This document shows, one piece after another, positions 6,470-63,028 of a stretch of 64,000 nt of DNA; the stretch's first letter is position 1; each line of letters starts with the position of its first letter. The notes below the pieces were generated by a model. That model saw nothing but the letters and a program-made list of their open reading frames with translations. It made no database searches and had not been told where the DNA came from. Source of the DNA: Amycolatopsis sp. 195334CR (GTDB lineage: Bacteria > Actinomycetota > Actinomycetes > Mycobacteriales > Pseudonocardiaceae); assembly GCF_017309385.1 (NCBI RefSeq), contig NZ_JAFJMJ010000002.1, positions 1,612,001 through 1,676,000 of the forward strand, in the 5' to 3' direction. Made by a program: the position numbers and the translations under genes.

Positions 6470-6593
6470 CGAAGCTCCTTTCCGCCTCGATGCCCACCGT
6501 GCCGTCCTCGGCGCCCCGGCACGTCGGCGCTCGGGCCGCACCTGGTCGTCTCCGGAAACGACATCCGCGTACGACCCCGGTAGGACACGACCC

Positions 6594-7262: not shown

Positions 7263-7394
7263 GGTAGCGATGTTAGCGCATGACGAACGCACGGTCACGG
7301 TCCTGCGATACGCATGGTGATCAAAAGGTTCCGCCGAACCCCCTTACGGCGTAACGTTGGATTCCAAGTCTGCCGATGCGAGGGGTGGGAAACG

Positions 7395-8246: not shown

Positions 8247-8302
8247 CGACACGCCGCGGGGTGGTGGCGGACCCGCGCGGGTCCGGGTGGTACCAAGGAA
8301 GC

Positions 8303-8500
8303 ATGGACTGCGCGACCTGTTCCGCGGGTCTCGACCACTGCCACGGCACGCTGGTGCTGCACGCCGAGTTCCTGGCGGAGTGCACCGAGCCGGGGTGTAC
8401 CGACCTGGGCCGAGCCCGTCACCTGCTGATCATCGACTGCCACAGCCTCAACGGCGGCTGCTCCTGCGTGGAAACGGAAGTCCGCCTGCTCAGCGCCTGA
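8303..8500 (+). CDS. Small Cys/His-rich protein
   Basis: 65 residues, with an ATG at 8303 behind an AAGGAAG ribosome-binding site. It contains eight cysteines (3, 6, 13, 27, 32, 46, 53, 55) and four or more histidines, including CATC, HCH and GGCSC groups. The spacing suggests bound zinc or disulfides. There is no signal peptide, so zinc is the more likely. It lies 56 bases after ku and faces the stress-protein gene. I do not recognise the family; small proteins of this style occur in actinomycetes without an assigned function. Confidence 0.75.
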   Translation: MDCATCSAGLDHCHGTLVLHAEFLAECTEPGCTDLGRARHLLIIDCHSLNGGCSCVETEVRLLSA

Positions 8501-8503
8501 GCG

Positions 8504-8983
8504 TCATTCGCCGCGGACGACCACGACCGGGCAGCCCGCCCGTTCGACCACGGCCGACGAGGTGCTGCCGAGCAGCAGTTTGCTGAGCCCGCCGTGCCGG
8601 TGCGAGCCGACCACCACGGCGGCCGCACCGGTTTCCGCGGCCAGGCGCACCAGGGTGTCCGCGACGGTCACGTCGTCGGCGACCGCGTGCCCGGTGGCGT
8701 CGAACCCGTGCTCCACGGCCAGCCGCGCGCCCGCGCGGGCCAGCACCCGCGCGGATTCGTAGGCGGCCTGGTCGACCGCGAGCCCGGTGCGGATGTCGAC
8801 CGTGACCGGCGCGCCCTCGAGCCCGCTGATCGGCAGGTTCACCGGGGAGAACGCCTGCCCCGGCTCCCAGACGGTGACCACCAGCGCCCGCCGGGCGCCG
8901 AGGAGCGCGGCCGCCTCGCGGATCGCGTGCTCCGCGGTGGGCGTGCCGTCGAAACCGATCAGGATCCGGGCGTCGGCGTCCAT
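8504..8983 (-). CDS. Universal stress protein (UspA family)
   Basis: 159 residues, a single Usp domain. The start MDADARILIGFDGTPTAEHAI is the usual N-terminal strand. The C-terminal ATP-binding motif GSHRHGGLSKLLLGSTSSAVV matches the G-x2-G-x9-G-S/T pattern of ATP-binding Usp proteins. Start 8983 is preferred over longer upstream extensions because a leaderless promoter sits immediately before it. Role: general stress or dormancy-related nucleotide-binding protein; no specific partner is visible. Confidence 0.93.
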   Translation of the reverse strand: MDADARILIGFDGTPTAEHAIREAAALLGARRALVVTVWEPGQAFSPVNLPISGLEGAPVTVDIRTGLAVDQAAYESARVLARAGARLAVEHGFDATGHAVADDVTVADTLVRLAAETGAAAVVVGSHRHGGLSKLLLGSTSSAVVERAGCPVVVVRGE

Positions 8984-8992
8984 GGTGGTTTC

Positions 8993-9020
8993 ACCGTACG
9001 CCCGGGAGATCCGGGTGCAA
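8993..9020 (-). promoter_or_regulatory. Candidate near-leaderless promoter of the universal stress gene
   Basis: On the minus strand, TTGCAC (9020-9015) and TACGGT (8998-8993) are separated by 16 bases. The expected transcription start is near 8986, leaving a 3-base leader before ATG 8983. The spacer contains a short symmetric CCGGATCTCCCGG. This is a pattern match only. Confidence 0.5.
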
Positions 9021-9213
9021 CCCGGCCGCTTCAGACCTTGAAGACTCGCCCCGGCTCGGCCACCTGCACGGTGCCGCGGAAAGCGGTCCGGCCCGCGGCA
9101 GGTAGCCCGAGCACGGCTCACCCGCGACCGGGTACGGAGTCCGGCTGGCGCTGCCGTGACGAACCGGTGCCCGGGAGAAGGCGACTCCGGGCGGACACTA
9201 ACCGACCGCAGTC

Positions 9214-9242
9214 TTGCAGGTTTCGTACAGAACACGCATACT
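9214..9242 (+). promoter_or_regulatory. Candidate promoter for the GH16 gene in a 378-base divergent gap
   Basis: The gap 8984-9361 separates the divergent stress-protein and GH16 genes. Within it, TTGCAG (9214-9219) and CATACT (9237-9242) are spaced by 17 bases, a plausible but imperfect SigA-type promoter. It would leave a leader of about 110 bases. Apart from the stress-gene promoter, nothing else was recognised in this gap. Confidence 0.35.
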
Positions 9243-9361
9243 TTCGCCAATCACGGCAAAAGTGATTCGCGCAGGCATCGCCGCCTCACCGTGCGCTGGC
9301 CTGCACCTCTCCCTCCCCAGCAGTTCCCCCGGTAGTGCCACCGCAGCGAAAGGTGAGCGCG

Positions 9362-10630
9362 ATGTCCGTTCGAAACCTCCCCCGCAAACGCAGATCCGGC
9401 CGGCTGGCCGCGGGCCTGCTCGCCGTCGTGGCGGGCGCCAGCCTGGCGGTCGCCGCCCCGGCCGGCGGCAGCCCGGCCCCGCCCGAAGCCCCGCCGGCGG
9501 CCGCGGCGGTGACCTTCGCCGACGAGTTCAACCTCCCGGCGGGCACCCCGGTCGACGGCAGCAAGTGGCAGCTGGAAACCGGCGACAACGTCAACAACCA
9601 CGAACGGCAGTACTACACGAACAGCACCAGCAACGCCGTCCACGACGGCCAGGGCAACCTGGTGATCACCGCCCGCCGCGAGAACCCGGCGAACTACCAG
9701 TGCTGGTACGGCCGGTGCGAGTACACCTCGGCGCGGTTGAACACCGCGGGCCGGTTCACCCAGGCCTACGGCCGCTTCGAGGCCCGCATCAAGATGTCCC
9801 ACGGCCAGGGCATGTGGCCCGCGTTCTGGATGCTGGGCAACAACATGGGCAGCGTCGGCTGGCCCGAGGCCGGCGAGATCGACATCATGGAGAACGTCGG
9901 TTTCGAGCCCTCCACCGTGCACGGCACGCTGCACGGCCCTGGTTACTCGGGCGCGGGCGGCATCGGCGCCGGGTACTCCATCGGGGGCCGGTTCACCGAC
10001 GCCTTCCACACCTTCGCCATCGACTGGGCGCCGAACCGGATCACCTGGTCAGTCGACGGCAACGTGTACCAGACCCGCACGCCCGCCGACCTCAACGGCA
10101 ACCGCTGGGTGTTCGACCACCCGTTCTTCATGATCCTGAACCTGGCCGTCGGCGGGTACTGGCCCGGCGACCCGAACAGCAGCACGCCCTTCCCGAACCA
10201 GCTGCTGGTCGACTACGTCCGGGTGACCAACGACGGCGGCGGTGGCTCGGGCGGTCAGATCACCGGCCTCGGCGGCAAGTGCCTCGACGTGGCCGGCGCG
10301 AACACCGCCAACGGCACCCCGGTCCAGATCACCGACTGCAACGGCAACGCCGCCCAGAACTGGACGATCTCCGGTGACGGCAGCATCCGCGCGCTCGGCA
10401 AGTGCCTCGACGTCTCCGGCGGGTCGACCGCGGACGGCGCGGTGGTGCAGTTGTGGGACTGCAACGGCACCGGCGCGCAGCGGTGGGCCACCCCGGCGGC
10501 GAAGGACATCGTGAACATCGCCGCGAACAAGTGCCTCGACGTGGTCGGCGGCAACGCGGCCAACGGGTCCAGGACGCAGATCTGGACCTGCACCGGCGCG
10601 GCCAACCAGAAATGGAACATTCCCGCCTGA
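9362..10630 (+). CDS. Secreted GH16 endo-beta-1,3-glucanase with ricin-type lectin domain
   Basis: 422 residues from ATG 9362, preceded by AAAGGTGAG. A Sec signal peptide with a twin basic N-region covers residues 1-~48. The GH16 catalytic domain (about 50-290) carries the active-site motif GEIDIMEN, with E172 as nucleophile, D174, and E177 as acid/base. A Gly/Ser linker then leads to a C-terminal ricin-B/CBM13 trefoil with three QxW repeats, NAAQNW, GAQRW and NQKW, each preceded by GKCLDV or NKCLDV. It should hydrolyse laminarin-like or fungal beta-1,3-glucans outside the cell, with the lectin giving carbohydrate anchoring. It stands alone with its own promoter region. Confidence 0.95.
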   Translation: MSVRNLPRKRRSGRLAAGLLAVVAGASLAVAAPAGGSPAPPEAPPAAAAVTFADEFNLPAGTPVDGSKWQLETGDNVNNHERQYYTNSTSNAVHDGQGNLVITARRENPANYQCWYGRCEYTSARLNTAGRFTQAYGRFEARIKMSHGQGMWPAFWMLGNNMGSVGWPEAGEIDIMENVGFEPSTVHGTLHGPGYSGAGGIGAGYSIGGRFTDAFHTFAIDWAPNRITWSVDGNVYQTRTPADLNGNRWVFDHPFFMILNLAVGGYWPGDPNSSTPFPNQLLVDYVRVTNDGGGGSGGQITGLGGKCLDVAGANTANGTPVQITDCNGNAAQNWTISGDGSIRALGKCLDVSGGSTADGAVVQLWDCNGTGAQRWATPAAKDIVNIAANKCLDVVGGNAANGSRTQIWTCTGAANQKWNIPA

Positions 10631-10689
10631 CAACGGCGTCCGGCCGGGAAGCAGGGGAGCCGGGGCCGGGTGATCCCCGGCCCCGCTCC

Positions 10690-10695
10690 TAGCAT
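10690..10695 (+). promoter_or_regulatory. -10 element for a leaderless or near-leaderless transcript
   Basis: TAGCAT ends 7 bases before the GTG at 10703, so the expected transcript starts at or within 1-2 bases of the start codon. No -35 element is evident. The same TAGCAT box precedes the ABC-F gene at 31790. Confidence 0.5.
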
Positions 10696-10702
10696 CAGCG
10701 GT

Positions 10703-11524
10703 GTGCAGCGACTCCGCGACGACCTGCTCGGCGAGCACCGGGTGAGTGTTCTCCTCAAGCGCGAGGACCGCTTCCCCGGCAACAAGTGGCGCAAGCTCAA
10801 GGGGAACATCGAAGCCGCGCGCGAGCGTGGCGCGGTGCTCACCTTCGGCGGCGCGTACTCCAACCACATCCGCGCGGTCGCCACCGCGGGCCGCCGGTAC
10901 GGGCTGCGGACGATCGGGCTGATCCGCGGTGAGGAACACCTGCCGCTGAACGAAACCCTGGCCCACGCGACCGAGTGCGGGATGGAACTGCACTACCTCG
11001 ACCGGACCACCTACCGGGCCAGGAACGAGCCGGACTTCCTCGCCGGGCTGCCCGCTCGGTTCGGTTCGTTCCACCTGATCCCGGAGGGCGGCAGCAACGC
11101 GCTCGGCGTCCGCGGCTGCACCGAGATCGTCGAGGAGATCGACGAGCCGTACGACGTGGTCTGCTGCGCGTGCGGAACCGGCGGCATGCTGGCCGGGATG
11201 GCGTACGCGCTGCCCGCCGGTCGCCGGGCGGTCGGCTTCTCCGTGCTCAAGGGCGGCGAGTTCCTCAACGACGACGTCGCCCGGCTCCAGCGCGAGGCCT
11301 TCGGGCACCCCACGGACAACTGGAGCATCGAACTCGGCTACCACTTCGGCGGTTACGCCAAGCAGCCCGCGCCACTGACCGAGTTCGCCCGCGACTTCGA
11401 GGCGCGGCACGGACTCCGGCCGGACCCGGTGTACGAAGCCAAGATGCTGGCCGGTCTCTTCGACCTGGTCCGGCGGGGCCGGTTCGCCCCGGGAACCCGG
11501 ATCGTCGCGGTGATCGCGGGTTAG
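10703..11524 (+). CDS. PLP-dependent ACC deaminase / D-cysteine desulfhydrase family enzyme
   Basis: 273 residues from GTG 10703 ([22 protein letters not shown]), chosen because the leaderless promoter ends just before it; a GTG at 10670 would overlap that promoter. The fold-type II PLP lysine is in [12 protein letters not shown]. The YSNHIRAVA motif, the phosphate-binding loop CGTGGMLAG and EGGSNALG are typical of 1-aminocyclopropane-1-carboxylate deaminase/D-cysteine desulfhydrase relatives. At 273 residues it is shorter than the ~330 of characterised enzymes. The substrate cannot be assigned. Its stop overlaps the stop of the convergent SGNH gene. Confidence 0.85.
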
Positions 11525-12747
11525 CGGACCAGGCGGTCGACCGGCACGACCGCGGCCATCGCGTCCATGCCCGCGTCGTTGGGGTGCAGGTGGTCGCCGG
11601 AGTCGTAGGCCGGGTGCAGCCGGGTGGGCTGCGCCGGATCGCCGGTGGCCCGGTCGAAGTCGATCACCCCGTCGTACTCGCCCGAGGTGCGGATGAACTT
11701 GTTCAGCGCCTGCCGGTCCGCCTCGCCCTCCGTGGTGTAGTACCCGGCGCCCTCGAACGGCAGCAGCGTCGCGCCGTACACCTTCAGCCCCAGCGACTTC
11801 GCCCGCGCGATGAACTGGCGGTGCACCGAGATCAGGTCCTCGGCGAGCACCGCGCCCCGCGTGCCGCCGATGTCGTTGATGCCCAGCAGCAGCACCACCG
11901 CGCGCACCCCGCTCTGGCCGCTGACGTCGCGGTCGAACCGCGTCATCGCGCTCTGCCCGGCCGGGCCCTGGTCGGTGAGCAGCCGCGCGCCGCCGATGCC
12001 GGTGTTGAGCACGCCGTACTCGGCGCGCTCCGGTTTCGCCAGCACGCGCTCGGCGACCCGGTCGGGATAGCGGTAGTTGCGGTCGACCGTGGTGATCGCG
12101 CCGTCGGTGATCGAGTCACCGAAGAACACCGCCGAGCCCGCGCTCACCGTCCGCACGTCCACGCCGTCGAGCAGGTACCAGGAAGTACCCAATGGGGTGA
12201 ATCCGGTGCCCTCGGCGGCGGTCTCGTTGCCGGGCGTGGTCCAGTTCGTGGCGAACGCCGACCGGTGCTGGGTGAGCGGCCCGGTCGGCCCCGGCAGGTG
12301 CAGCGACACGGTCAGGTTCGCGCCGTCCGGCACGGTCAGGTCGATCGGATCGGACACCCATTCCGCGCCGATCGGGATGGTGGTCGAGCGTTCGCCGCCG
12401 AAGCGCACCTGCCGCAGCGTGTCCTCGTCCACCCGCGAACCGCCCTCGGCGTGCTGCACGGCGACCGTGGCGGCGCCGATCTGCAGCGTGGAGGTGCCGA
12501 ACACGTTCGACAACCGCAGCCGCAGCTCACTGCCGCCGACCGAGAGGTGCACCACCTGGCGCAGCGTGGTGTCGGTGAACCCGGTCAGCCCGGTGCCGGG
12601 CGAAGCGACGGTGACCCCGGTGGTCCAGGAGCCGGTCCAGGCCGGGCCCGCGCGGCCTTCCGGCGCGGTGGAGGCGCCGGGCGCGGCGGTCAGCAGGAGC
12701 AGGCCGGTGGCGGCGAGAACCGTGCCGCGGCGGATCCAGGACGTCAT
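11521..12747 (-). CDS. Secreted SGNH/GDSL hydrolase (esterase)
   Basis: 408 residues from ATG 12747, following GGGGGTC. A signal peptide covers residues 1-~30 ([21 protein letters not shown]). A beta-rich N-terminal domain follows, then the SGNH hydrolase with block [11 protein letters not shown] (catalytic Ser), block [12 protein letters not shown] and block [11 protein letters not shown] (catalytic Asp/His). The arrangement matches extracellular carbohydrate esterases and lipases of the GDSL type in actinomycetes. An acetyl-ester polysaccharide substrate would suit the neighbouring GH16 enzyme but is not shown. Confidence 0.92.
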
Positions 12748-52354: not shown

Positions 52355-52618
52355 GGCGGCCACCTCCTTTCCGTGTGGGATTCGCGTCGGCGGGCAGAAT
52401 GGAACCGCCGACCCTTCGTCGATTGATTCGGATTTATTTCTCGAATTTCTCCGAACCGGAATCAAGAATGCCGGTGCATGTCGCGCGCTGATAGTGGTTG
52501 CCTGTTTCCTCCCTGCACGGGAAACGGGAAACGCGGCCGACGGGGTGGTTTGGCCTTGCGCGCGCAGGGCGGCCCGGCCAGGCTTGCATGGGTGGTGGAG
52601 GTTCGCGGAGGTGAGTTG

Positions 52619-53557
52619 GTGAGTGCGCTCGTCGAGGAGTTGAAATCGCTGCGCAAGGGGCGCGGGGTTCTCGCGAACCCGATCAGCGACCGGATCGGGC
52701 CGGAACTCTCGGCGCGGTCCGGGATCGACCCCGGTGACAGGTCGGCGCAGCGCAGGGAAAAGATCGTCGCCCTGCTCGGGGTCTCCATCGCATCGCTGCC
52801 GGACGATCTCGGTGCCCTGCTGCGCCTGGCGTTCGCGCTGGACCCCAGTGCGCGGCTGCCCTTCTACCAGCAGCGGATGGACGTGGCCGCCGCACGGCTG
52901 GGATGCGAGCGAAGAACGGTCCGCCGTCGCGTGGACGAGGGCATCGCCCACCTCGCCGAGGTGCTGGACGACGTGCCCGCGGCGGAACCGCGGGTGGCGT
53001 CGACGGTGCCCCGGCTGGACTGGTACACCCAGGAGTTGCGCACTTTCGTGAACCTGGACCTGCCGGTGCCGGAGGCGTTCGAGATCCGGCGGGTGATTGC
53101 GGAACGGGACGACCTTCGCACTCTGGACCTGGCGTTCACCGTGACAGCCTCAGCGGACCGCCCTGAGATCGACGTTTTCGGCGGAGGACGGCTGCTCGAC
53201 ACCCGGCAGCAGGCGGCCGACCGGATCGGGTTCGCCCTCGAACTGCCGGAGGCGCTGGGCCAAGGACAGGCACACGTGTTCGTGCTCCGGTTCCGGGTGA
53301 GCGCCGAGGCGATGGTCAAGCCGCACTACGTGTGCGTGCCGAAGCAGCGTTGCGATCGCTTCGACCTGCGGGTGCGGTTCGGCACGGGCCGCGTTCCGCC
53401 GGAGATCTGGCGGCTCTCCGGCCGATTCCAGCGCGACCTCGACGACCCGGTGGCGACCGGTGAGCCCGCGGAACCCGATTCCGTGGGCGAGATACACGCG
53501 GAGTTCCGAGGGCTCATGCCGGGACTCGCCTACGGATTTCGCTGGCGTGAGACCTGA
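52619..53557 (+). CDS. HTH-type transcriptional regulator, actinomycete-specific type
   Basis: 312 residues from GTG 52619, with GGAGG 7 bases upstream. The N-terminus LVEELKSLRKGRGVLANPIS plus ISDRIGPELSARSGID matches a widespread uncharacterised actinomycete family. An HTH-like segment ARLGCERRTVRRRVDEGIAHLAEVL follows at about residue 95. The C-terminal half (residues ~130-312) is beta-rich with no recognised fold. It is convergent with the end of the TIR/TerY-P-like operon and could be part of that locus. Confidence 0.7.
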   Translation: MSALVEELKSLRKGRGVLANPISDRIGPELSARSGIDPGDRSAQRREKIVALLGVSIASLPDDLGALLRLAFALDPSARLPFYQQRMDVAAARLGCERRTVRRRVDEGIAHLAEVLDDVPAAEPRVASTVPRLDWYTQELRTFVNLDLPVPEAFEIRRVIAERDDLRTLDLAFTVTASADRPEIDVFGGGRLLDTRQQAADRIGFALELPEALGQGQAHVFVLRFRVSAEAMVKPHYVCVPKQRCDRFDLRVRFGTGRVPPEIWRLSGRFQRDLDDPVATGEPAEPDSVGEIHAEFRGLMPGLAYGFRWRET

Positions 53558-53561
53558 CCGA

Positions 53562-54272
53562 TCAGGGACCCGTTCGGTGCAGCGTCTCCCTCGACTTCTC
53601 CTCGTTCTTGTGCGTGACCGTGAGTTCTGTCCCCCTGATTTCGTATCGGTAGCCCTTGTTGTGAGCTATGAATCCGTCAGGGGTCCTGCTGGCTTCCAGC
53701 GAAATGTGCGTTTCCGGGGTGGCGGGCTGACCTTTCTTCCGGCCGTCGTAGTAGTGCTGCCCGCTGACGGTGCGGCACACCACGATCTCGTGCTTTTCCG
53801 TGGTGTACGCGGCGACGAGCACCGCTCCGCTGCCGTTCGCCGGCAACCAGGTGGCCGCGGTGTCGGGGCATGCGTTTTCGGCCTTCGCGGGAGCTGACGG
53901 CGCCGGCTCAGGGGATTGTTCGCCGAGCGTGGCCCAGCCGATGAACCCGGCGATACCGACCGTCACCGCGACCGCGACAGGTGTGCGGATCGATCGCCGG
54001 GGCGGCACCGTCTCGGCGGGCGGCGGTGGCGTTGTGGGCTTGACCGGTGGTGGAGACGGCGGAGTCAGAGCGATCCGCGCCCTGCTCGTCGTCTCCGATG
54101 GCGGGGTGCCGGGCGCCAGCCGGGTCTGCCGGCGCCGTGGGGTCACCGCTTCCGGGACCGTACGCACTTCGCCGGTGGCGCTCCCCGGTGACTGACGGCA
54201 GGTGCGACACCGGTCGGCACCGGGAAGATTGTTGGTATCACAGGAATCGCAGACCCAGGCTGCGGCCGTCAT
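53562..54272 (-). CDS. RanBP2-type zinc-ribbon membrane protein, last gene of the TIR operon
   Basis: 236 residues from ATG 54272 (ATGA overlap with the preceding gene). The N-terminal zinc ribbon WVCDSCDTNNLPGADRCRTC has C-x2-C-x10-C-x2-C spacing and resembles RanBP2-type ribbons. A Pro/Thr/Arg-rich linker follows, then one membrane helix (TPVAVAVTVGIAGFIGWATL) and a C-terminal domain of ~130 residues with two Cys. Topology is cytosolic ribbon, external C-domain. It could dock the complex encoded upstream to the membrane. Confidence 0.8.
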   Translation of the reverse strand: MTAAAWVCDSCDTNNLPGADRCRTCRQSPGSATGEVRTVPEAVTPRRRQTRLAPGTPPSETTSRARIALTPPSPPPVKPTTPPPPAETVPPRRSIRTPVAVAVTVGIAGFIGWATLGEQSPEPAPSAPAKAENACPDTAATWLPANGSGAVLVAAYTTEKHEIVVCRTVSGQHYYDGRKKGQPATPETHISLEASRTPDGFIAHNKGYRYEIRGTELTVTHKNEEKSRETLHRTGP

Positions 54273-54856
54273 CGGGATTCTCCTGTTGCTTCGGTGTGCG
54301 GGCGCGGCGACAGCACGCCGTCGTCGGGTCCGGGCCGGAACACCAGCCAGTCCGGGGTGTCCGGGGCGGCGGAAACCTCGAGCGGAACAAGCTTCCGGGG
54401 CGCTTCGGCGGACGGAGCCGGATGGGCAGGCGGTCGCCGGGCAGACAATCGGCGGGCGAGGTCCTCGAGCAGCGGCCGGTGCACTGCGGGAAACCAGAGT
54501 GCCAGCGTGAACGCCGTGGTCCCACCGAGGCTGGCGGACAGGCTGAGCCGCACCGGCTCCGTGCCCGGCAGCCCCGGTCCGTTGGTCAAGCGCAGGTCCG
54601 TGCAACACCGGTAGGGCAACCGCAGGCGAGCGCCGTCCTGGCCGCCCGGCCGGTGTTCACCGATCTCCAGCCGGGTGGCCCGGCAGATCAACCAGACCTC
54701 CGGACCGAGCGCCACCGCGTCCGGCCGCTCGGGCCAGGCGATCACCGCGACCTGCCCGGTCGGCACACCTCGGTGGTACTCACGCAACTGGTACCCCGGG
54801 CCGGGCTCGGCCCGCCATTCAGCCCGCTGCCGACGTCGCCGGCCTGGCAACAACAC
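54269..54856 (-). CDS. Uncharacterised protein of the TIR operon
   Basis: 195 residues from GTG 54856, which starts two bases after the vWA stop. It overlaps the zinc-ribbon start by 4 nt. An Arg-rich N-terminus (LLPGRRRRQRAEW) is followed by a beta-rich domain with many Leu/Pro/Arg residues (AVALGPEVWLICRATRLEIG, RLPYRCCTDLRL, LSLSASLGGTTAFTLALWFP) and a Pro/Ala-rich tail. No family was recognised. Position alone ties it to the phosphorylation module. Confidence 0.7.
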   Translation of the reverse strand: MLLPGRRRRQRAEWRAEPGPGYQLREYHRGVPTGQVAVIAWPERPDAVALGPEVWLICRATRLEIGEHRPGGQDGARLRLPYRCCTDLRLTNGPGLPGTEPVRLSLSASLGGTTAFTLALWFPAVHRPLLEDLARRLSARRPPAHPAPSAEAPRKLVPLEVSAAPDTPDWLVFRPGPDDGVLSPRPHTEATGESR

Positions 54857-54858
54857 GG

Positions 54859-55569
54859 TCAGAGGCTGTTGGCGATGGTGGCGATGATCTCGTCCATTTC
54901 CCATTCTTCGAGCCCTTCTCCCGCGGTCGACGGGAAGTAGAGCGTGTGGTTCCAGTCGTCGGCGATGTCGGTCCACGGATATTCCTCCGGGGCGAACAGC
55001 AACAACCGCTTCGCCGAGTTCTCCATCGCGGAGTTCCGGCTCTGCGCATGGCCCCAGCGCTGGAACAACTCGTCCAGCGACCGCGGCGTGTTCGGCGGGT
55101 AGTTGTGCGCTTTTGTCTGCCTCGGATCCCCCAGCGGATGCGCGGCCGCGTCGGTGAACACGACGATCACGTGCCTCCGGCGGTCCAGTCCGGTCTCCCA
55201 GTCGGAAGCCATCGCGAGGGCGAGTGCTTCGAGTCCTGACTCCGGCAGGTCGCCGCCTCCGGTGGGGGTCAGTTCACGCACGGCGCTTTCGAACTCGTCC
55301 AGTTGCTCGGGAACGGTGAGGAAGGATGTCTGGGTCAAGGCGTCGTCCGGGTAGTCCCCGAAGTCGCGGAACGTGATCACCTTGAGCCGGAGACTGCTGA
55401 TGCCGCGCCCTTTGCTCGCCATCTCCTGCGTCAGGCGCGTCGGGAAGGACAGCGCGCTGTGCTTGACGTTGTCCAGGGTGGGGCCCATGCTGTCGGTCGC
55501 GTCGATGCAGAGCACGATGTCCACGGCGTACTTCAGGCTGGCGGCTGCGTTCTGGGTCCGTGTGTTCAT
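54859..55569 (-). CDS. vWA-domain protein, TerY-like
   Basis: 236 residues, ATG 55569 within a 4-nt overlap with the kinase. A single vWA domain: the MIDAS motif DATDS at 23-27 (LCIDATDSMGPTLDN), the Thr site in TPTGGGDLPES, and the Asp site in IVVFTDAAAHPLGDP. The metal-ligand set looks complete. vWA proteins encoded with a PP2C phosphatase and a Ser/Thr kinase make the TerY-P triad. It likely organises metal-dependent protein contacts whose state is set by phosphorylation. Confidence 0.92.
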   Translation of the reverse strand: MNTRTQNAAASLKYAVDIVLCIDATDSMGPTLDNVKHSALSFPTRLTQEMASKGRGISSLRLKVITFRDFGDYPDDALTQTSFLTVPEQLDEFESAVRELTPTGGGDLPESGLEALALAMASDWETGLDRRRHVIVVFTDAAAHPLGDPRQTKAHNYPPNTPRSLDELFQRWGHAQSRNSAMENSAKRLLLFAPEEYPWTDIADDWNHTLYFPSTAGEGLEEWEMDEIIATIANSL

Positions 55570-56579
55570 CGAGGTTCGGTCATCCTTTCTCCGGTTGACG
55601 GCCCGGACAGGTTGATCCGCAGCCCGCCGGCGAGCGGTGTTCGTCCGGTGAGATTGATCCGCACGCGACTTCCCCGAGGGGCTGGCTCGTCGGGGGCGTG
55701 GTCCCCGAAGCCGTCGAGAACCCGAGTGGCCTCGGCGACGGACGGGCGGGCCGCCGGGTCCGGGTCGATCAGCGCACGCAGCAGGCGGGTGGTCTGCGTG
55801 TCCAAATGCGGTGAGAAGGTCAACTCCGCCCCTGCTGCGACAGCGGCGGCGGGGGAGTCGAACGCGGCATCGTGGTCCGGTGGTGCGCCCACGAGGTAGG
55901 TGTGCACCAGCAGCCCGAAGGAGAACATGTCGGTGGCCTGGGTCAGGTCACCTTCCCGCACCGAACTGTCTCCCCACATGTAACGCAACCATTCGGGGGC
56001 GCCGTACGACGGGCTGCCACCGATGATGTCCCGCGCCGGCGGTTCACCCGCCGGGTAGGCGTCATCGAAATCGATCAGCTTCGTCACATGGAAACGACTT
56101 CGTTCCGGCCGGTGCAGTAACACGTTGTCCGGCTTCAGATCGCCGTGCACGATGTCGCGGTCGTGCAGCAGGCGGACGCTGTCGGCGAGGGTGTGCAGCA
56201 GCACCGCCTGCTCCCGGCGGCCCAGGGTGTGCGGGTCGGCGTCCACCGCGTCGATTCGCCTGGTGATCTTGTAGTAGCGGGTGCCCTCGGCGAAGAAGTC
56301 GGTCGCGAGGACGAGGTTGCCTGCGAAGAGGTCGTCGGCGCGCAACAACGTCATCATGCGCTCGTGCCGTTGCTCGAACCGGGCGCATTCGCCGAGCCGG
56401 CGCCGTTTGTCGGCCGGCGTGCCTATCCCGTCCTCCCTTGGCCGCTTGGGGTCGAGGAATTCCTTGATGAAGTACGACTCGCCGTCCTTCTCCGCGAACG
56501 CCCACACGCATTTGCCCGCGTTGGCGTTCCCCGGCCTGCTCACCACGAGGTAGCCGTTGATGGTCTGGCCTTTTTTCAC
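55566..56579 (-). CDS. Cytosolic Ser/Thr protein kinase of the TerY-P-like triad
   Basis: 337 residues from GTG 56579, overlapping the phosphatase stop by 4 nt. Kinase motifs: Gly-loop SRPGNANAGKCVWAFA, catalytic Lys39 in YFIKEFLDP, the catalytic loop HGDLKPDNVLL (HGD, D147, in place of HRD), metal-binding D170 in LIDFDDAYP (DFD in place of DFG), and APEWLRYMW as APE. No PASTA or membrane region, unlike housekeeping PknB. The tail ends in a short repeat-like stretch RINLTGRTPLAGGLRINLSG. It should phosphorylate operon partners. Confidence 0.92.
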   Translation of the reverse strand: MKKGQTINGYLVVSRPGNANAGKCVWAFAEKDGESYFIKEFLDPKRPREDGIGTPADKRRRLGECARFEQRHERMMTLLRADDLFAGNLVLATDFFAEGTRYYKITRRIDAVDADPHTLGRREQAVLLHTLADSVRLLHDRDIVHGDLKPDNVLLHRPERSRFHVTKLIDFDDAYPAGEPPARDIIGGSPSYGAPEWLRYMWGDSSVREGDLTQATDMFSFGLLVHTYLVGAPPDHDAAFDSPAAAVAAGAELTFSPHLDTQTTRLLRALIDPDPAARPSVAEATRVLDGFGDHAPDEPAPRGSRVRINLTGRTPLAGGLRINLSGPSTGERMTEPR

Positions 56580-57601
56580 CCAGGTCTCCCTTCGGCGAGC
56601 AGTCTGGCTTCGTAAGCGGCGCGGTACCGGTGCCAGGACTCCGCACGGGCCGCGACGAGCGCGGTGCGGTCTCCCGGTTGGATCTGCTTCATCGGCTCGG
56701 CATGTGTGGTGCGCACCGTGTCCGCCCTCGGCCGGAACCGGGCGCGGAACTCGTCGAAATCGCGGTAGCCCAGCGCGGTGACCACGATCGACGCGTCGTC
56801 GCCGGTGTATGCGGCCACCCGATCGGCGAGTAGCACCGACCAGTGGACGCAGCTGTTCGCGGTGACCAGCGTGCTCCACAGGATGTGCTCGAACTCGGCG
56901 GGCGTGTCGACGTAACCGAAGAACCCGTCGGTGGCGCACAACAGCACGCAGGGCAGCCGGGCGCTCCCGCGCCAGCGGTTCAACGAGAACACCTGGCTGG
57001 AGCTGACCATGTTCGTCATCGGCGGGTCCTGGATGAGCAGTTCGAGCGCGTCGGCGGATTCGGTGTCGTCACGGCTGAGTTGCTGCAGGCCGGTGTGCTC
57101 TTCGGCGACGTAGCACCGGGAGTCACCTGCCCAGAGCACGTCCCAGCGCACCTCGGTGGTGGTCAGCTGGAAGGACAAGGCGGCCAGGGTGGTGGGGAAG
57201 TCGCGCCGCATACTGCCGCGCACCCGTCCGCCCGGTGACGTTCCCGCACCGAGCCGATCGGCGATGTGCTCGCCGAGCCCGGTCGGAGTCTGCAGGGCGA
57301 ACCACTCTTCGGCCAGGCCGCGGGCGCGGCGGGCCGCCACCCACGCGTGCGTGTGGTCAGCACCGGAGATGCCTTGCCCGGCGTTGGCCCGGCCCGCGCC
57401 GCCGACACCGTCGAAGACGGCGAGAAGGCCACGCCTGGCTGGCCGGTGGAACACCAGCAGCGGCGCGGCGTCCTCACCGCGGCCCTGTCTTTGTTCGGAC
57501 CAGACCGCCACGGCGGCCAGGCCGGCCTCTTCGTGGTGCCACAGTTGAGCGGTTGTCCCTTTCGCAACGGGATTCACGTGCATGTTGGGTGGCTGGCTCA
57601 C
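56576..57601 (-). CDS. PP2C-family protein phosphatase
   Basis: 341 residues from GTG 57601 (GTGA overlap with the SPFH-like gene). PP2C metal-site motifs: AVFDGVGGAGRANAG (D64-G65), WAGDSRCYVAEE, LCATDGFFGYVDTP and TGDDASIVVTALG. It should reverse the action of the kinase encoded next. The last ~70 residues form a helical extension. The regulatory domains of stress phosphatases are absent. Confidence 0.92.
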   Translation of the reverse strand: MSQPPNMHVNPVAKGTTAQLWHHEEAGLAAVAVWSEQRQGRGEDAAPLLVFHRPARRGLLAVFDGVGGAGRANAGQGISGADHTHAWVAARRARGLAEEWFALQTPTGLGEHIADRLGAGTSPGGRVRGSMRRDFPTTLAALSFQLTTTEVRWDVLWAGDSRCYVAEEHTGLQQLSRDDTESADALELLIQDPPMTNMVSSSQVFSLNRWRGSARLPCVLLCATDGFFGYVDTPAEFEHILWSTLVTANSCVHWSVLLADRVAAYTGDDASIVVTALGYRDFDEFRARFRPRADTVRTTHAEPMKQIQPGDRTALVAARAESWHRYRAAYEARLLAEGRPG

Positions 57602-58599
57602 TCGTTGCCGGGCGAGTCGGTGGCGATGCCGCGCACCCGGCTCGGCCGGCGGCCGTTGCCGTCGGCCGGTGCCGAGTTCGCGGGCTGCGCCGGCGGCTCC
57701 GCGTGCGGGGGCGTGTTGCCTTCGACCACCGAGCCGTTACCCAGTTCGCCCTTCGTCTTTCGCTCCAGGCGCTCCCGGATCGCGCCGGTGCCTGCCGTGC
57801 CCAGCGGTTTGGCGTCGGGGAAGAAGGTGTCGATGGCACCCTGGCGGATGCCGGAGAGGTTGAAGTCCTCCACCTTCTCCGCGGAGTTCATCAGCACCCG
57901 CAGGGCGTCGAGTCGCGCCTTGGTGACGGCTTCCCGGTCCGCCCGCTCCCGGTCGAGCAGGGGTGTCGGGTCGCCGCCGGTCTTGGCCATGATGTGGGCG
58001 AGCATTTCTTCCCGGCCGCCGGTCGCGATGGGTCGCATCGCGGTGCGGCGGATGTCCTCGACCCTGAGATCCCGGGTGGTCGTCACAATCTCCGCGGCGT
58101 CGATCGCTTCGGCCGAAGCGCTGAAGGAGGACAGCCGGACCGCCGACAGCGGGTAGGCACCGTTGAGGCGTTCGGCGATGGCCGCCGCGGCCGCGTTGCC
58201 CTGCAGAACGTCGTATTTCGCGGTGACCTCCTGCACGATCCCGAGCAGGGAAGGGCGCAGAGCGGACGCCATGTCGTGCACGCCGTCCCTGGCGATCGCC
58301 ACCGGGTCGACGACCTGGCAACCGAAGCGGACGGTGATCCTGAACGGGAAGGCCGGGTCCGCGCTCGGTGCTTCCAGCACGATGGACACGGCGCGGTTGG
58401 TGGTGACGACCTGGTGCATCCGGCGGTAGTTACCGATCCGTGGGTCCGGCACCCGCTCGCCGTGGTGCACCACCAGGGGGTCACCCACCGCCTGCTCCAG
58501 CACCAGCACGGTGCCCATGGCAGGCGCGCGCAGGGGTGCTCCCAGACGCAGCCGGCGCAACTCGGCTGTCTCCGGTACCGGGTCGTAGGTCTGGCTCAT
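57598..58599 (-). CDS. SPFH/band-7-like protein of the TIR operon
   Basis: 333 residues from ATG 58599 (ATGA overlap). An N-terminal beta-rich part (MGTVLVLEQAVGDPLVVHHG, NRAVSIVLEAPSADPAFPFR, ITVRFGCQVVDPVAIARDGV) leads to a long helical segment (MASALRPSLLGIVQEVTAKY) and then Leu/Arg-rich helices and a Pro-rich disordered tail. The DP followed by a helical stretch is reminiscent of band-7 (SPFH) scaffolds, but no membrane hairpin is seen. Family assignment is tentative. It may assemble into oligomers that bring the operon products together. Confidence 0.6.
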   Translation of the reverse strand: MSQTYDPVPETAELRRLRLGAPLRAPAMGTVLVLEQAVGDPLVVHHGERVPDPRIGNYRRMHQVVTTNRAVSIVLEAPSADPAFPFRITVRFGCQVVDPVAIARDGVHDMASALRPSLLGIVQEVTAKYDVLQGNAAAAAIAERLNGAYPLSAVRLSSFSASAEAIDAAEIVTTTRDLRVEDIRRTAMRPIATGGREEMLAHIMAKTGGDPTPLLDRERADREAVTKARLDALRVLMNSAEKVEDFNLSGIRQGAIDTFFPDAKPLGTAGTGAIRERLERKTKGELGNGSVVEGNTPPHAEPPAQPANSAPADGNGRRPSRVRGIATDSPGNE

Positions 58600-60785
58600 G
58601 CCGTCAGTTCTCCTGCCTCGATGAGTTCGTTGTAGAAGTAGGCGGCCGCGTCGAGTGGTTCGTCGCGGTCGACCGCCCAGCCGTGCAGGGCGTGGCAGAT
58701 CCGCTCGAAGTCGTCGGGCCCCCGGTCGGCGATGCCGCCGAGGAGCAACAGGACGTCCTCCTGGACCGACGGATCGCGGTCGGCCACCCGGATCCAGTCG
58801 TGCAGCGAATCGAGGGCGAGGGGGCGTACCGCCTCGGTGGACAGCGCTCGGCCCCAGAGCCGGGTGAGCGCGTCGCGGTGCTTCGCCGCGGAAAGCAGAA
58901 GAACCGGGCGGTCGGCGGCATCCGTGTCCGCCGAACCTTCTTCCCACGCCGCGAAGGCGAACATGTTCAGCGCCTTCTCGAGTGGCTCGTCCGCGGTACC
59001 CGGTTCGGTCCACTCGATCAGCGCGGTCAGCACTTCGTTCACCAGCCCGGCTTCGAGCAGGGCGTGCGTCGTGATCGCGGCGGGTGTGAGCAGCTCCCAG
59101 CCACCATCGCAGACAACCGTCCGCAGCACGCGCAGCGCCCGGCGTGGCTCGGCCACACCCAGTGGCCCGCCCGCTGCCAGCGCCGCGGTGGCGGGCAGGT
59201 ACCTGTGGTCCCCGAAGGTCAACTGGTCGGCCCAGGCCGTGATGTAATCCCAGACGGCGTGCGCGGGCACGCCGACGCGACCCGCCACGTTGAGGCCGAG
59301 CGCGGCACTTTGGCGCAACGTGGGCGACTTGTGCGCGGCCCAGGGCCGGAGATAGCGGTGCACGCCGTGCTCGAAGTCGCTGGCCGCCAGGATCCCGGCC
59401 GCCACCGCCGCTCGGGCGCGCACTTCGACGTCAGCGTGCTCCGCGAGATTGGTCAGCCAGGGCAGGATCTTGTCGCGGGCACCGTCCAGTTCGAACCAGA
59501 TCAACGCCAGCACCGAGGGCCGGAGTTCGGCGTGCCGGAAGCGCAGGATCGACGGACGGTAGGACTCGCCGGGCTGCTCCAGGTACTCGATCCACGAGCG
59601 TTCGGCCATCAGCTTGCGCAGGTAGCGCGGGGTCAGCTTGGCGGTGCCGTTGCCGATCTGGCGGGACAACGCGACGGCGGCGTCGGCGACGTTGAGGTAG
59701 CTCGATTCCTCCAGCGCCGCGGTCGCCAGGACGAAGGCGATCTCGGCCGCGTCGGGCTCAGTGCTGAGCCATTCGCGCACTCGGCCTTCGGGGTCGCCGA
59801 GCTGGGCTACCGCGGTCCCGAGGTCGCTGTCGTCCCGGATGGCGTCGGCCACGACCTTCCCGGCTCGGGCGGCGAACTGCGGATCATCGCGCTCGTCGAG
59901 CAGTTCCGCCAGCCTGGTGTCGGCCAGCAGCGCGGCCAGCTCCTCCTCGCCCATCGACGGGATCACCTGCCGGACTCGACGGCGCACGATCTCCATCGGG
60001 TCCGGCAGTTCCATGTCCTCGATGACGAAGTCGTGCCGGTTCGGTGCGGTGGCGAGCTCCCCGCCGGTCACCGGTCCGGTGATCACCACCAGGAAGCTGT
60101 TGCTGTCCTCCAGCTGCGCCGAGGCGTAGTTCAGCCAAGCCTCGGTGACCGAGGTTTCGGCGACGAACTTGCCCTGCGAGTTGGGGCGGTCCACCACGAT
60201 GAATCCGCAGGCGCGTTGCGGGACGCGCCAGGTCATGTTGCCGAGCACCGAGCCGCCGAGTTCGAACACGTTCAGCTCGAGCCCGGCCGCACGCAGGACC
60301 TGCACCAGGGTGGTCCTGGCTCGGCCACTCCGGCCCGTGCCCGCGGGGCCGGAGAAAACGGCGAGGAAGTTCTCGCGCAGGGTGTTCGTCCCGGCGTGGA
60401 AGTCGGCGGAAGGCACGTAGGAATCTGCCTCCTCGGCCAGGAAGTCGGCCGGAACGCGGACCTTGCTCGCTCGCCTCGGTGATGTGCGGCGGCCGCCACC
60501 GCCGGTCGAGAAGTCGCCGCCGATCGAAAAGTCGCCCTGGAAGATGTTGACCGTCCCAGCGCCGTCGAGCCGCGAGATGCCCGCCGAAATGATTTTCTCC
60601 GAGCGGACGTTGGCGAGGCCCGACGCGCCCCGAAGCAGGCTCACCGCCTCCTCGCGGGTCGACGGAGCTTCGGGTGGGGTGGTCGGGGGCCGGGAGGCTT
60701 CCTCTTCCTCGGCGCGGGGGGCGTCGGCGGACGGTTTGCCCTCCGACTCGGGCGGCGTTCCTGTCGCGGCTTCTTCAGTCGACAC
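58596..60785 (-). CDS. Large P-loop-like / HEAT-repeat protein (STAND-like candidate)
   Basis: 729 residues from GTG 60785; it overlaps the TIR gene by 11 bases. Residues 1-60 are acidic and disordered. A short motif NIFQGDFSIGGDFSTGG (80-96) is shared with the TIR protein. A P-loop-like segment SGPAGTGRSGRARTTL (145-160) lacks the usual GKS/T, and FIVVD near 195 could be Walker B. The C-terminal ~400 residues are helical with HEAT-like repeats (AEHADVEVRARAAVAAGILA). It could sense a ligand and control the TIR protein. The degenerate P-loop leaves ATPase activity in doubt. Confidence 0.7.
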   Translation of the reverse strand: MSTEEAATGTPPESEGKPSADAPRAEEEEASRPPTTPPEAPSTREEAVSLLRGASGLANVRSEKIISAGISRLDGAGTVNIFQGDFSIGGDFSTGGGGRRTSPRRASKVRVPADFLAEEADSYVPSADFHAGTNTLRENFLAVFSGPAGTGRSGRARTTLVQVLRAAGLELNVFELGGSVLGNMTWRVPQRACGFIVVDRPNSQGKFVAETSVTEAWLNYASAQLEDSNSFLVVITGPVTGGELATAPNRHDFVIEDMELPDPMEIVRRRVRQVIPSMGEEELAALLADTRLAELLDERDDPQFAARAGKVVADAIRDDSDLGTAVAQLGDPEGRVREWLSTEPDAAEIAFVLATAALEESSYLNVADAAVALSRQIGNGTAKLTPRYLRKLMAERSWIEYLEQPGESYRPSILRFRHAELRPSVLALIWFELDGARDKILPWLTNLAEHADVEVRARAAVAAGILAASDFEHGVHRYLRPWAAHKSPTLRQSAALGLNVAGRVGVPAHAVWDYITAWADQLTFGDHRYLPATAALAAGGPLGVAEPRRALRVLRTVVCDGGWELLTPAAITTHALLEAGLVNEVLTALIEWTEPGTADEPLEKALNMFAFAAWEEGSADTDAADRPVLLLSAAKHRDALTRLWGRALSTEAVRPLALDSLHDWIRVADRDPSVQEDVLLLLGGIADRGPDDFERICHALHGWAVDRDEPLDAAAYFYNELIEAGELTA

Positions 60786-61371
60786 GCCCAGCTCCCAGGT
60801 TGACGTCGCCCCCGACGGACCAGTCGCCCATGAAGTTGTTGTCGATCTTGTCGGCCCGTACCACCCGCTTGCCGGACCGGTTCTTCTCCGGTGGCGGCTT
60901 GGCCTCCCGCAGTTCGGGAATCTGGTTTCGGAGCTTGGTGGCCAGGCGGTCGATGTCGATTTTGGAGCTGCGGAAGCCGACCTTGATGTCCTGGCACGCA
61001 GCCAGCCACCGGAGTTCGCCCGGGAGCTTCTCGGCGGGCACGCGCGTCGTTTCCAGAAGAACTGGGATCACCTGCTTTCCGGTTTCGCGGGCACGCAGGA
61101 TCTCGCGGCGAACGAAATCGTCCGGTCGCTCGAGGAGCCGGGTGCCGTGCTCGTCGACCGCATCCGCCCACCGGCGCCCCATGATCACCAGGACGGCGGT
61201 CGACGCCCCGACGGCGCGGAACATCTCCTGCTCCCATGAAGTGCCCAGGGGAATGGACTTCGACGCGAAGAAGACGGCGGAGGGTCCGAAGCGCTCGGAC
61301 AGCGCCTCGTCGAGCATCGCGACGCCGAACGGCTCGTCGGTGGTGCGGTAGTTCAGGAAGATCTGGGTCAC
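60775..61371 (-). CDS. TIR-domain protein, first gene of the operon
   Basis: 198 residues from GTG 61371. A TIR domain (1-~145): IFLNYRTTDEPFGVAMLDEAL (BB-loop side), FFASKSIPLGTSWEQEMFRAV, VLVIMGRRW, and DDFVRREILRA with E90 as a candidate catalytic glutamate, followed by VIPVLLE. Bacterial TIR proteins of this type often cleave NAD+ or make cyclic-ADP-ribose signals. The C-terminal tail ends NNFMGDWSVGGDVNLG (178-193), shared in pattern with the next gene's product. Stand-alone TIR plus an overlapping partner gene fits a two-component effector-sensor design. Confidence 0.88.
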   Translation of the reverse strand: MTQIFLNYRTTDEPFGVAMLDEALSERFGPSAVFFASKSIPLGTSWEQEMFRAVGASTAVLVIMGRRWADAVDEHGTRLLERPDDFVRREILRARETGKQVIPVLLETTRVPAEKLPGELRWLAACQDIKVGFRSSKIDIDRLATKLRNQIPELREAKPPPEKNRSGKRVVRADKIDNNFMGDWSVGGDVNLGAGRVD

Positions 61372-61744: not shown

Positions 61745-63028
61745 GTGATTTCCAGTACGGAGAGGCCTGAAGTGTTCGGGCCGCGGTTACGGGAACTTCG
61801 GACCGGGGCCGGTCTCTCCCTGACCGAGTTCGCCCGGCGCCTCTACTACAGCAAGGGCTATGTCAGCCGGGTCGAAACCGGAGTCCAGCCGCCCTCGGTC
61901 GAGTTCGCCCGGCGGTGTGATGCGGAGTTGGACGCCGGTGGAACCCTCGCCGCGCTCGTGCCGATCGATGAAGCGCAGACGCCGGCACCACCCGAGGACG
62001 ATGACGATGGGATCTGGACGATGACGATGACGCCTGACGGCCGGACCACCTTCGCCCTGGTACGACGGCGGGATGTGCTGCTCGGCGGTGCGGCCGCGCT
62101 GGCCACTCTCGGCAGCCGGCCGCCGCGATCGGGGTTGGGGGACGATCAACTCGCCCACCACCGCAGCTTCCTGCAATCAGTACGTGCCCTCGGTCAGGTG
62201 ACTCCGGCGAGCCAGGTGCTGCCGATAGTGGTCGGCCAGGCCCAATCCCTGAGGGGCATGGCTCGAGCGGGGGTGGCGAGGCCGCAGGTCGGCGTGCTAT
62301 CGGCCAGGGTCGCGGAGTTCGCCGGCTGGATGGCGCAGGAGTCCGGGGACAACGAGGCCGCTTCCTGGTGGATCGCCCGGGCGATCAGAATCGCCAGGGA
62401 GACCGGTGACCGGCACACCGTGGCCTACGCTTTTGTGCGCCGTGCGCTGCTGAGCATGTACCAGGGCGACGCTCGTACCACGGTGGAACTCGCGCAGCAG
62501 GCGCAGTCGCAACCAGGGACGCCCCCGCGGATCCTCGGTCTCGCGGCTCAGCGAGAGGCGCAAGGACACGCGCTCGCCGGGGATTACGACCGGTGCATGC
62601 GGGCTTTGGACCTCGCGGCACGTCAGCTGGACGTCGCGCGAGGCGAGGTGGACGACGGGCCGACGATCGGGACGTCACACGTTCCGGACCCGGTTGCCGT
62701 CGTCACCGGATGCTGCTTGTACGACCTCGGCCGTCCTGGCGAGGCCGCTGAAGTGCTGGACCGCGAGCTGCCGAGAATCCCGGCCACGGCCGTCCGTGCT
62801 CGTCTGCGTTTCGGTGTCCGGCAAGCGCTCGCTCACGCCGCGGCCGGAGACCTCGACCGAGCGTGCGCTCTCACCACCTCGATGCTCGACCAGGTGGCGA
62901 CGATCGATTCGGCGACAGTCCTCACTGATGTCACCAAGCTCGCCGCCACGTTCCGGCGGTGGCACACGCATCCGGGGGTACGCGCGCTGGATCCCGTGTT
63001 CGGCAGGGTCCTCTACCGCGGGGCCTAG
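61745..63028 (+). CDS. XRE-family HTH regulator with helical repeat domain
   Basis: 427 residues from GTG 61745. The N-terminal HTH is GPRLRELRTGAGLSLTEFAR followed by YYSKGYVSRVETG. Then an acidic linker (EDDDDG), a segment RRRDVLLGGAAALATLG that resembles a twin-arginine signal but follows a cytosolic HTH, and a long TPR-like helical domain (about 140-427). Such XRE-TPR proteins are common actinomycete regulators next to variable loci. Being divergent from the TIR operon makes it the best candidate regulator. Its CTAG stop is shared with the convergent TetR gene. Confidence 0.9.
   Translation: MISSTERPEVFGPRLRELRTGAGLSLTEFARRLYYSKGYVSRVETGVQPPSVEFARRCDAELDAGGTLAALVPIDEAQTPAPPEDDDDGIWTMTMTPDGRTTFALVRRRDVLLGGAAALATLGSRPPRSGLGDDQLAHHRSFLQSVRALGQVTPASQVLPIVVGQAQSLRGMARAGVARPQVGVLSARVAEFAGWMAQESGDNEAASWWIARAIRIARETGDRHTVAYAFVRRALLSMYQGDARTTVELAQQAQSQPGTPPRILGLAAQREAQGHALAGDYDRCMRALDLAARQLDVARGEVDDGPTIGTSHVPDPVAVVTGCCLYDLGRPGEAAEVLDRELPRIPATAVRARLRFGVRQALAHAAAGDLDRACALTTSMLDQVATIDSATVLTDVTKLAATFRRWHTHPGVRALDPVFGRVLYRGA

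Follow-up and report, generated by a model that had tools for sequence, protein, structure and literature searches.

A TIR, AAA+/HEAT and SPFH operon in Amycolatopsis: a candidate NLR-like signalling system with exchangeable outputs and locus-specific matching motifs

The window analysed here, a 64,000-nucleotide stretch of the 9.9 Mb genome of Amycolatopsis sp. 195334CR (contig NZ_JAFJMJ010000002.1, positions 1,612,001 to 1,676,000), contains an eight-gene operon on the minus strand that runs from 61371 down to 53562. The open reading frame coordinates reproduce exactly the eight genes of the original prediction, with five overlaps of 4 nt, an overlap of 11 nt between the TIR and HEAT genes and a gap of 2 bases between the vWA gene and that of an unknown protein (UNK). 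The genes and their two neighbours are as follows, with Pfam scores given in bits and cut-offs in brackets.

61745..63028, plus strand: NsdA-family HTH/TPR regulator, divergent (NF053720, 182 bits)
60775..61371, minus strand: TIR output protein; GTG start, 198 aa; TIR_2 PF13676, 41 bits (cut-off 28)
61102-61104, minus strand: conserved Glu90 of the TIR, inside DDFVRREI
58596..60785, minus strand: AAA+/HEAT receptor-like protein; GTG start, 729 aa; HEAT_2 below threshold, 17.9 against 27.7
57598..58599, minus strand: SPFH protein with a long C-terminal tail; ATG start, 333 aa; fold from a predicted model
56576..57601, minus strand: PP2C-family phosphatase; GTG start, 341 aa; PP2C_2 PF13672, 26.5 bits (24)
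55566..56579, minus strand: Ser/Thr protein kinase; GTG start, 337 aa; Pkinase PF00069, 70 bits (31.7)
54859..55569, minus strand: stand-alone vWA protein; ATG start, 236 aa; VWA_4 PF25106, 39 bits (27)
54269..54856, minus strand: UNK protein; GTG start, 195 aa
53562..54272, minus strand: zinc-ribbon protein, CxxC...CxxC; ATG start, 236 aa; read from the sequence
52478..53557, plus strand: HTH-like protein gene, convergent; recurs beside several such loci and also elsewhere

Pfam gave nothing at E ≤ 1 for the SPFH, UNK and zinc-ribbon proteins, and neither NCBIfam nor PADLOC supplied a system name for the products of the operon. The zinc-ribbon protein has a single hydrophobic segment that is probably membrane-spanning. 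The TIR domain occupies residues 4-126 of the output protein, with a motif following at the C-terminus. Glu90, singled out in the original prediction and presumably the catalytic residue, is unchanged in 9/9 aligned TIRs; no solved structure related by sequence was found for the TIR at E ≤ 0.01.

The predicted fold of the AAA+/HEAT protein, which supports its earlier description as P-loop-like/HEAT, comprises a low-confidence N-terminus with a motif, an AAA+-type domain at approximately residues 101-336 and HEAT repeats at approximately 331-729. The stretch containing the motif, residues 77-105, has a pLDDT below 50 in the model. The protein has no sequence-related solved structure, Pfam assigns it neither NACHT nor NB-ARC at E ≤ 1, and it may be a divergent STAND NTPase, with which the predicted combination of AAA+-type domain and HEAT repeats is compatible. 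At the position of the P-loop where lysine is the norm it has an arginine, and it is therefore uncertain whether it hydrolyses NTP. The SPFH model (pLDDT 72.3) matched prohibitin best amongst PDB structures (E 3.8e-7), followed by QmcA, HflK/C, MVP, flotillin and stomatin, with low query TM-scores of 0.29-0.40 for the rows with E ≤ 0.001. The predicted fold thus bears out the label "SPFH-like"; by sequence the protein had no Pfam Band_7 match and only two rows, with E near 0.9, against solved structures.

Relatives of the divergent NsdA-family regulator scoring above 460 bits are present in exactly 3 of the 11 same-genus genomes, namely those carrying the operon in its close form, and the regulator is probably co-inherited with it. 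Regulators of the NsdA family, like the HTH-like gene, are met repeatedly next to loci of this kind. For the convergent HTH-like gene, relatives are present in 10/11 of these genomes, with up to six matches each, which makes it less specific to the operon. An HTH-like or NsdA gene also lies near TIR or other large genes at three further loci (L036, L158 and L159), neighbourhoods that we take to recall FxSxx-COOH loci.

Relatives of the HEAT protein were found by single-protein search in at least 23/298 genomes of the order, and by profile in at least 24/394 genomes of the class, 36/150 of the family and 2/198 of the phylum, the last two being the window's own genome and one of its class; the own genome is counted throughout, and all counts are lower bounds, with at most 2 to 7 first-look candidates scored per genome. 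The 13 named loci from the GTDB scan fall in Amycolatopsis (3), Actinokineospora (3), Actinomadura (2) and, once each, Actinocrispum, Goodfellowiella, Saccharothrix, Lentzea and Actinophytocola. The original prediction correctly placed TIR, P-loop/HEAT, SPFH, PP2C, kinase and vWA together in an operon, and this is conserved; the order recurs in other genera and the arrangement is therefore not due to chance. Counts exclude four duplicates (L057, L058, L060 and L067), and L185, L187 and L188 are the same loci as L059, L061 and L065. Six-frame search or frame translation supplied the TIRs of L059 and L065, the SPFH protein of L065, vWA and UNK of L039 and L058 and the PP2C of L040.

Leaving the window aside, SPFH adjoins HEAT in 55 of 60 distinct HEAT loci, a count made with an SPFH HMM whose seeds were chosen partly by gene position; of the 30 unseeded loci (L100-L129), 26 have SPFH adjoining HEAT and 24 have a typed output gene ahead of it. 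Upstream of HEAT in the 60 loci lies a cyclase-like gene in 30, a TIR gene in 15, a BTAD gene in 6 and an untyped, opposite-strand or missed gene in 9, amongst which L059 and L065 do have a TIR by six-frame search. From the position of SPFH and the typed upstream genes, the near-constant core is therefore output, AAA+/HEAT and SPFH. Behind this core the loci carry PP2C, kinase and vWA with UNK and zinc ribbon, the zinc ribbon alone, or an OmpA-domain protein with a membrane-type protein, and the zinc-ribbon gene is kept both with and without the PP2C-kinase-vWA triad.

The output is interchangeable, the same chassis being combined with a cyclase-like protein in L066 and with BTAD proteins in L068, L069, L100 and L101. 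In the 30 cyclase-like sequences the first Asp is present in 27, the second in 28 and the Arg in 28; the Asn, judged by eye, is found in few. We take the class III cyclase motif to consist of two metal-binding Asp, Asn and Arg, so that an Asn would be expected where most of these outputs have none. With BTAD as the output, regulation seems a likelier purpose than cell death, and the BTAD and cyclase-like outputs together speak for a general signalling role of the chassis, beyond the killing of cells. Several individual loci deserve mention. In L045 (8286-13624) the genes for a cyclase-like output, HEAT and SPFH precede those for a hydrophobic protein of 181 aa and a cNMP-binding regulator of the CRP-like kind, which hints that this regulator receives a signal made by the cyclase-like protein. 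L041 (12958-14450) has two consecutive TIR genes ahead of HEAT, of which the outer is short and encodes 155 aa. The genome carrying the window has a third HEAT locus, of the cyclase-like type with SPFH (L035, C4:186000-200000, 4945-9472). In the BTAD-type triad locus L100 (G540:C1:3281154-3283352) the HEAT match is interrupted by one TGA; the gene may be broken, or the sequence may contain an error.

These outputs bear on a reading in which the operon regulates development or the response to envelope stress in filamentous actinomycetes instead of protecting against phages, which we regard as a genuine contender, though on balance a doubtful one. The BTAD and cyclase-like proteins, the CRP-type gene downstream in L045 and the NsdA-family regulator beside the operon would all suit such a role, as would the searches of mobile elements: plasmids gave no match at E ≤ 1e-10, and of 22 stretches of viral contigs that matched a pattern none was confirmed. 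On the other hand, the distribution within the genus is patchy, with the close form in at least 3/11 genomes, and this is conflict-like, as is the strong diversification of the motifs; TIR proteins, moreover, are known defence effectors. The NLR-like machine set out below may have a role in defence.

When the loci are read side by side, many output proteins are seen to have a C-terminus similar to the N-terminus of the HEAT protein from the same locus, and the motif varies from locus to locus. The two motifs of the window pair were located by sequence comparison.

60787..60840, minus strand: TIR-side motif, residues 178-195, NNFMGDWSVGGDVNLGAG, which aligns with HEAT residues 80-91
60495..60551, minus strand: HEAT-side motif, residues 79-97, VNIFQGDFSIGGDFSTGGG, from comparison with the TIR C-terminus

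The matching segments are NNFMGDWSVGGD and NIFQGDFSIGGD in the window, NFIGGNAVVGTQVGRDNI and NFIGGDATIGTQVGRDNI in L046 and GPTSFGGPAAGRDVN and GPTSLGGPSAGRDVN in L044. In a masked test of 56 pairs, in which kinship was handled by permuting within output type alone, 0/20,000 permutations reached the observed mean and the cognate pair ranked first in its own row in 22 cases. The window alignment was the best of the 56 in its row, with a shuffle p of 0.002. Permutation within each type gave p 5e-5 for the cyclase-like (CYC) pairs (n=30) and 0.0008 for the TIR pairs (n=20); amongst the BTAD pairs alone matching was not significant (p 0.088, n=6). By shuffling, p fell below 0.01 for 36/59 cognate pairs against 3/59 non-cognate ones, a control with 300 shuffles in which the output was set against one random HEAT partner of another output type. 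In 13/59 cognate pairs p exceeded 0.4 (L038, L041, L042, L047, L051, L052, L061, L063, L068, L119, L125, L123 and L124), the upstream gene of the last two being untyped. TIR cognate pairs came first in just 3/20 rows (1/17 in the 56-pair test) because the motif is fairly uniform within the TIR clade. A first, unmasked test on 21 pairs also gave 0/20,000, with a control segment upstream of the motif slightly above chance (403/20,000); masking was introduced after this test let proline-rich linkers align. It also removed the motif aligned in L051, which had ranked first unmasked. Four loci were left out of the pair test, three with the neighbour on the other strand (L056, L102 and L116) and one with an untyped 83-aa ORF (L103); L065, at first dropped, L157 and L160 were added to the shuffle and by-type tests.

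An HMM built from 13 TIR C-termini and run against 1,066 locus proteins returned the TIRs and then 13 HEAT rows with E from 0.0035 to 0.93, which represent 10 distinct loci and all match where the N-terminal motif lies; no protein of a different kind scores ahead of these rows, the earliest sharing E 0.93 with the final HEAT row. Of the 13 loci that supplied its seeds, the HMM recovered the HEAT protein in 9, missing those of the window, L038, L063 and L064. Three TIRs (L064, L065 and L186) have an FN form of the motif, and their HEAT partners have the FN form too. A second NsdA-TIR-HEAT locus in the window's own genome (L157, C1:3404000-3422000, TIR at 8163-8996) has a different operon tail. 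Its TIR closes with an 11-residue repeat, similar to GSVVGSPKFGE and present in some six tandem copies, which might serve as an inbuilt unit for stacking.

On these comparisons the receptor-like AAA+/HEAT protein appears to recruit the TIR through the matching short motifs. The proposal that the HEAT protein restrains the TIR was not supported, the motifs pointing instead to recruitment or nucleation. The matches might also reflect ordinary docking of short beta-strands in a 1:1 complex, with no templated amyloid and with the HEAT protein merely carrying or inhibiting the output. The shortness of the HEAT-side motif and its position within a low-confidence stretch fit such docking, several output/HEAT pairs match weakly or not at all, and outputs of the BTAD transcription-factor type would lend themselves to sequestration. 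We nevertheless think it unlikely, since the motifs of output and receptor are homotypic rather than complementary and many are Gly-rich, features that stacking explains better, as it does the tandem repeats of the L157 TIR.

The PP2C-kinase-vWA triad is present in 13 loci, eight with a TIR (the window, L037, L038, L039, L040, L063, L064 and L186), four with BTAD (L068, L069, L100 and L101) and one with a cyclase-like output (L066); L064 meets a contig edge before its zinc-ribbon gene. UNK was annotated solely beside the triad amongst the surveyed loci and was not found in the triad loci L066 and L100. Seven of the 15 close TIR loci (L041, L042, L043, L059, L061, L062 and L065) are without PP2C and kinase, L059 retaining vWA. 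The possibility that TIR/HEAT and the triad would rarely be found together can be set aside for the close loci (8/15 have both), the fraction being 8/21 when the distant L047, L048, L053, L126, L157 and L160 are counted. The order TIR-HEAT-SPFH-PP2C-STK-vWA recurs, with the qualification that the triad is accessory to a core of output, HEAT and SPFH and that BTAD and cyclase-like proteins also serve as outputs. The vWA protein gave 9 matches in 8/150 family genomes, 7 of them beside a HEAT gene; the other two are L184, a lone vWA gene, and L183 (G742:C1:2488000-2507000, 6526-12148). L183 has PP2C-kinase-vWA-UNK beside a 583-aa SPFH-looking protein with SRVRG and neither a TIR nor a HEAT gene, and the triad is therefore separable.

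The triad is linked to the SPFH protein through a short tail motif, and a pattern search located it twice in the operon.

57628..57642, minus strand: SRVRG, residues 320-324 of the SPFH protein, in its C-terminal tail
55650..55670, minus strand: SRVRINL, residues 304-310 of the kinase, in its tail

The kinase tail reads SRVRINLTG / LRINLSG, and the PP2C protein has GRVRG at residue 125. Counting any match past residue 200 and including L183, which has no HEAT, SR[VL]R is present in the SPFH protein of 13/14 loci with a kinase nearby against 3/45 without (Fisher 1.8e-9); the match in L065 lies outside the tail, and the single miss with a kinase nearby, L040, has GRVRG. A looser pattern applied to 12 triad loci was found in 12/12 SPFH proteins, 10/12 kinases and 3/11 PP2C proteins, and in none of 111 unassigned neighbours, 11 vWA, 12 HEAT and 7 TIR proteins. 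The form in the kinase tail is mostly SR[VL]RINL, with L038 and L063 deviating. It would seem likely that these tails are a phosphorylation or docking site for the kinase and phosphatase.

TerY-P systems consist of kinase, PP2C and vWA genes, and these do occur here in a single run, as the original prediction stated in assigning them to TerY-P; no PADLOC model, however, matches the PP2C or vWA protein, and the kinase matches other families in PADLOC. That the triad makes the operon a TerY-P system with an added TIR is very improbable, as kinase and PP2C are absent from 7/15 close TIR/HEAT loci and the L183 triad runs with another, larger SPFH-looking protein without HEAT or TIR, and TerY-P was dropped as the core frame, the triad being neither constant nor core. 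TerY-P has been tried as a defence system (PMC10889362); in contrast to it, the triad is optional here.

The best explanation, and in our judgement a reasonably probable one, is that the operon encodes a signalling machine of the NLR-like kind whose outputs can be exchanged. In it the AAA+/HEAT protein would be the receptor or switch, with a flexible N-terminus carrying a short, probably beta-forming motif whose match lies at the C-terminus of the adjacent output. On activation the receptor would oligomerise and its motifs would template those of the outputs by homotypic, probably amyloid-like stacking, bringing the output domains together in an active cluster; in the window, the TIR assembly would then cleave NAD+ or turn it into a signal. 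The SPFH protein may form a ring- or cage-like scaffold, probably near the membrane, and in the triad version kinase and PP2C could set the threshold through SR[VL]R in the SPFH and kinase tails.

Pycsar and Thoeris use cyclase or TIR signalling enzymes, as these loci do, and differ in that the partner here is an AAA+/HEAT protein; Pfam recognised no cyclic-nucleotide receptor or ThsA-like gene among the eight products. The NLR/effector amyloid pairs follow the same logic as the combination seen here, in which an NTPase-type switch with a repeat domain and a flexible N-terminal motif is joined by a separate effector bearing a similar motif. BASS (PMC7889193, PMC8086366 and PMC12261475) are bacterial NLR/effector pairs of filamentous bacteria that share an amyloid motif. 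As in those accounts, the genes here are adjacent, the motif is common to the effector C-terminus and the receptor N-terminus, TIR effectors occur and the hosts are filamentous actinobacteria. A motif shared in this arrangement is found both across the locus family and in the window pair, where the TIR-side HMM missed the HEAT protein. The same accounts differ from the present loci in that the receptor here is an AAA+/HEAT protein with no NACHT/NB-ARC Pfam match, outputs are also cyclase-like or BTAD proteins, the SPFH gene is nearly constant and a kinase and phosphatase are accessory.

A like kinase-PP2C-vWA trio is found in the GAP1-N2 systems of Kaur et al. 2020 (PMC7159879). They share with our loci the coupling by homotypic linker pairs, of the EAD kind, with core and exchangeable effector genes, and, in GAP1-N2 theme 3, an accessory actinobacterial kinase with a zinc ribbon or TM, PP2C and stand-alone vWA; cyclase and Band-7 (SPFH) domains occur there too. 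The linkers here, unlike those EADs, are short motifs rather than folded domains. None of the eight products had a Pfam match to MoxR, VMAP, GAP1 or a GTPase, and the two flanking genes likewise gave none to the MoxR AAA+ and VMAP of the VMAP/MoxR-vWA ternary system. Parts of the logic, namely BASS, EADs and kinase-PP2C-vWA trios, are thus already known. In the open-access literature no description was found of the output-AAA+/HEAT-SPFH core or, as had been suspected, of the TIR/HEAT/SPFH/PP2C/kinase/vWA set.

Tentatively, and with the odds somewhat against the proposal in its entirety, the loci could constitute an undescribed class of bacterial signalosome that unites an AAA+/HEAT receptor, locus-specific prion-like templating, interchangeable outputs and an SPFH cage, with a kinase/phosphatase module that, by way of the SR[VL]R tails, tunes both the cage and itself. 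If this is true, motif-templated (NLR-amyloid) signalling would gain a new type of receptor, as well as outputs producing second messengers or controlling transcription, and SPFH scaffolds would be linked to it. More than 30 natural motif pairs (the 36 with shuffle p<0.01) would be open to direct tests of specificity, and the SR[VL]R tails would offer a concrete phosphorylation hypothesis for the kinase-PP2C-vWA trio.
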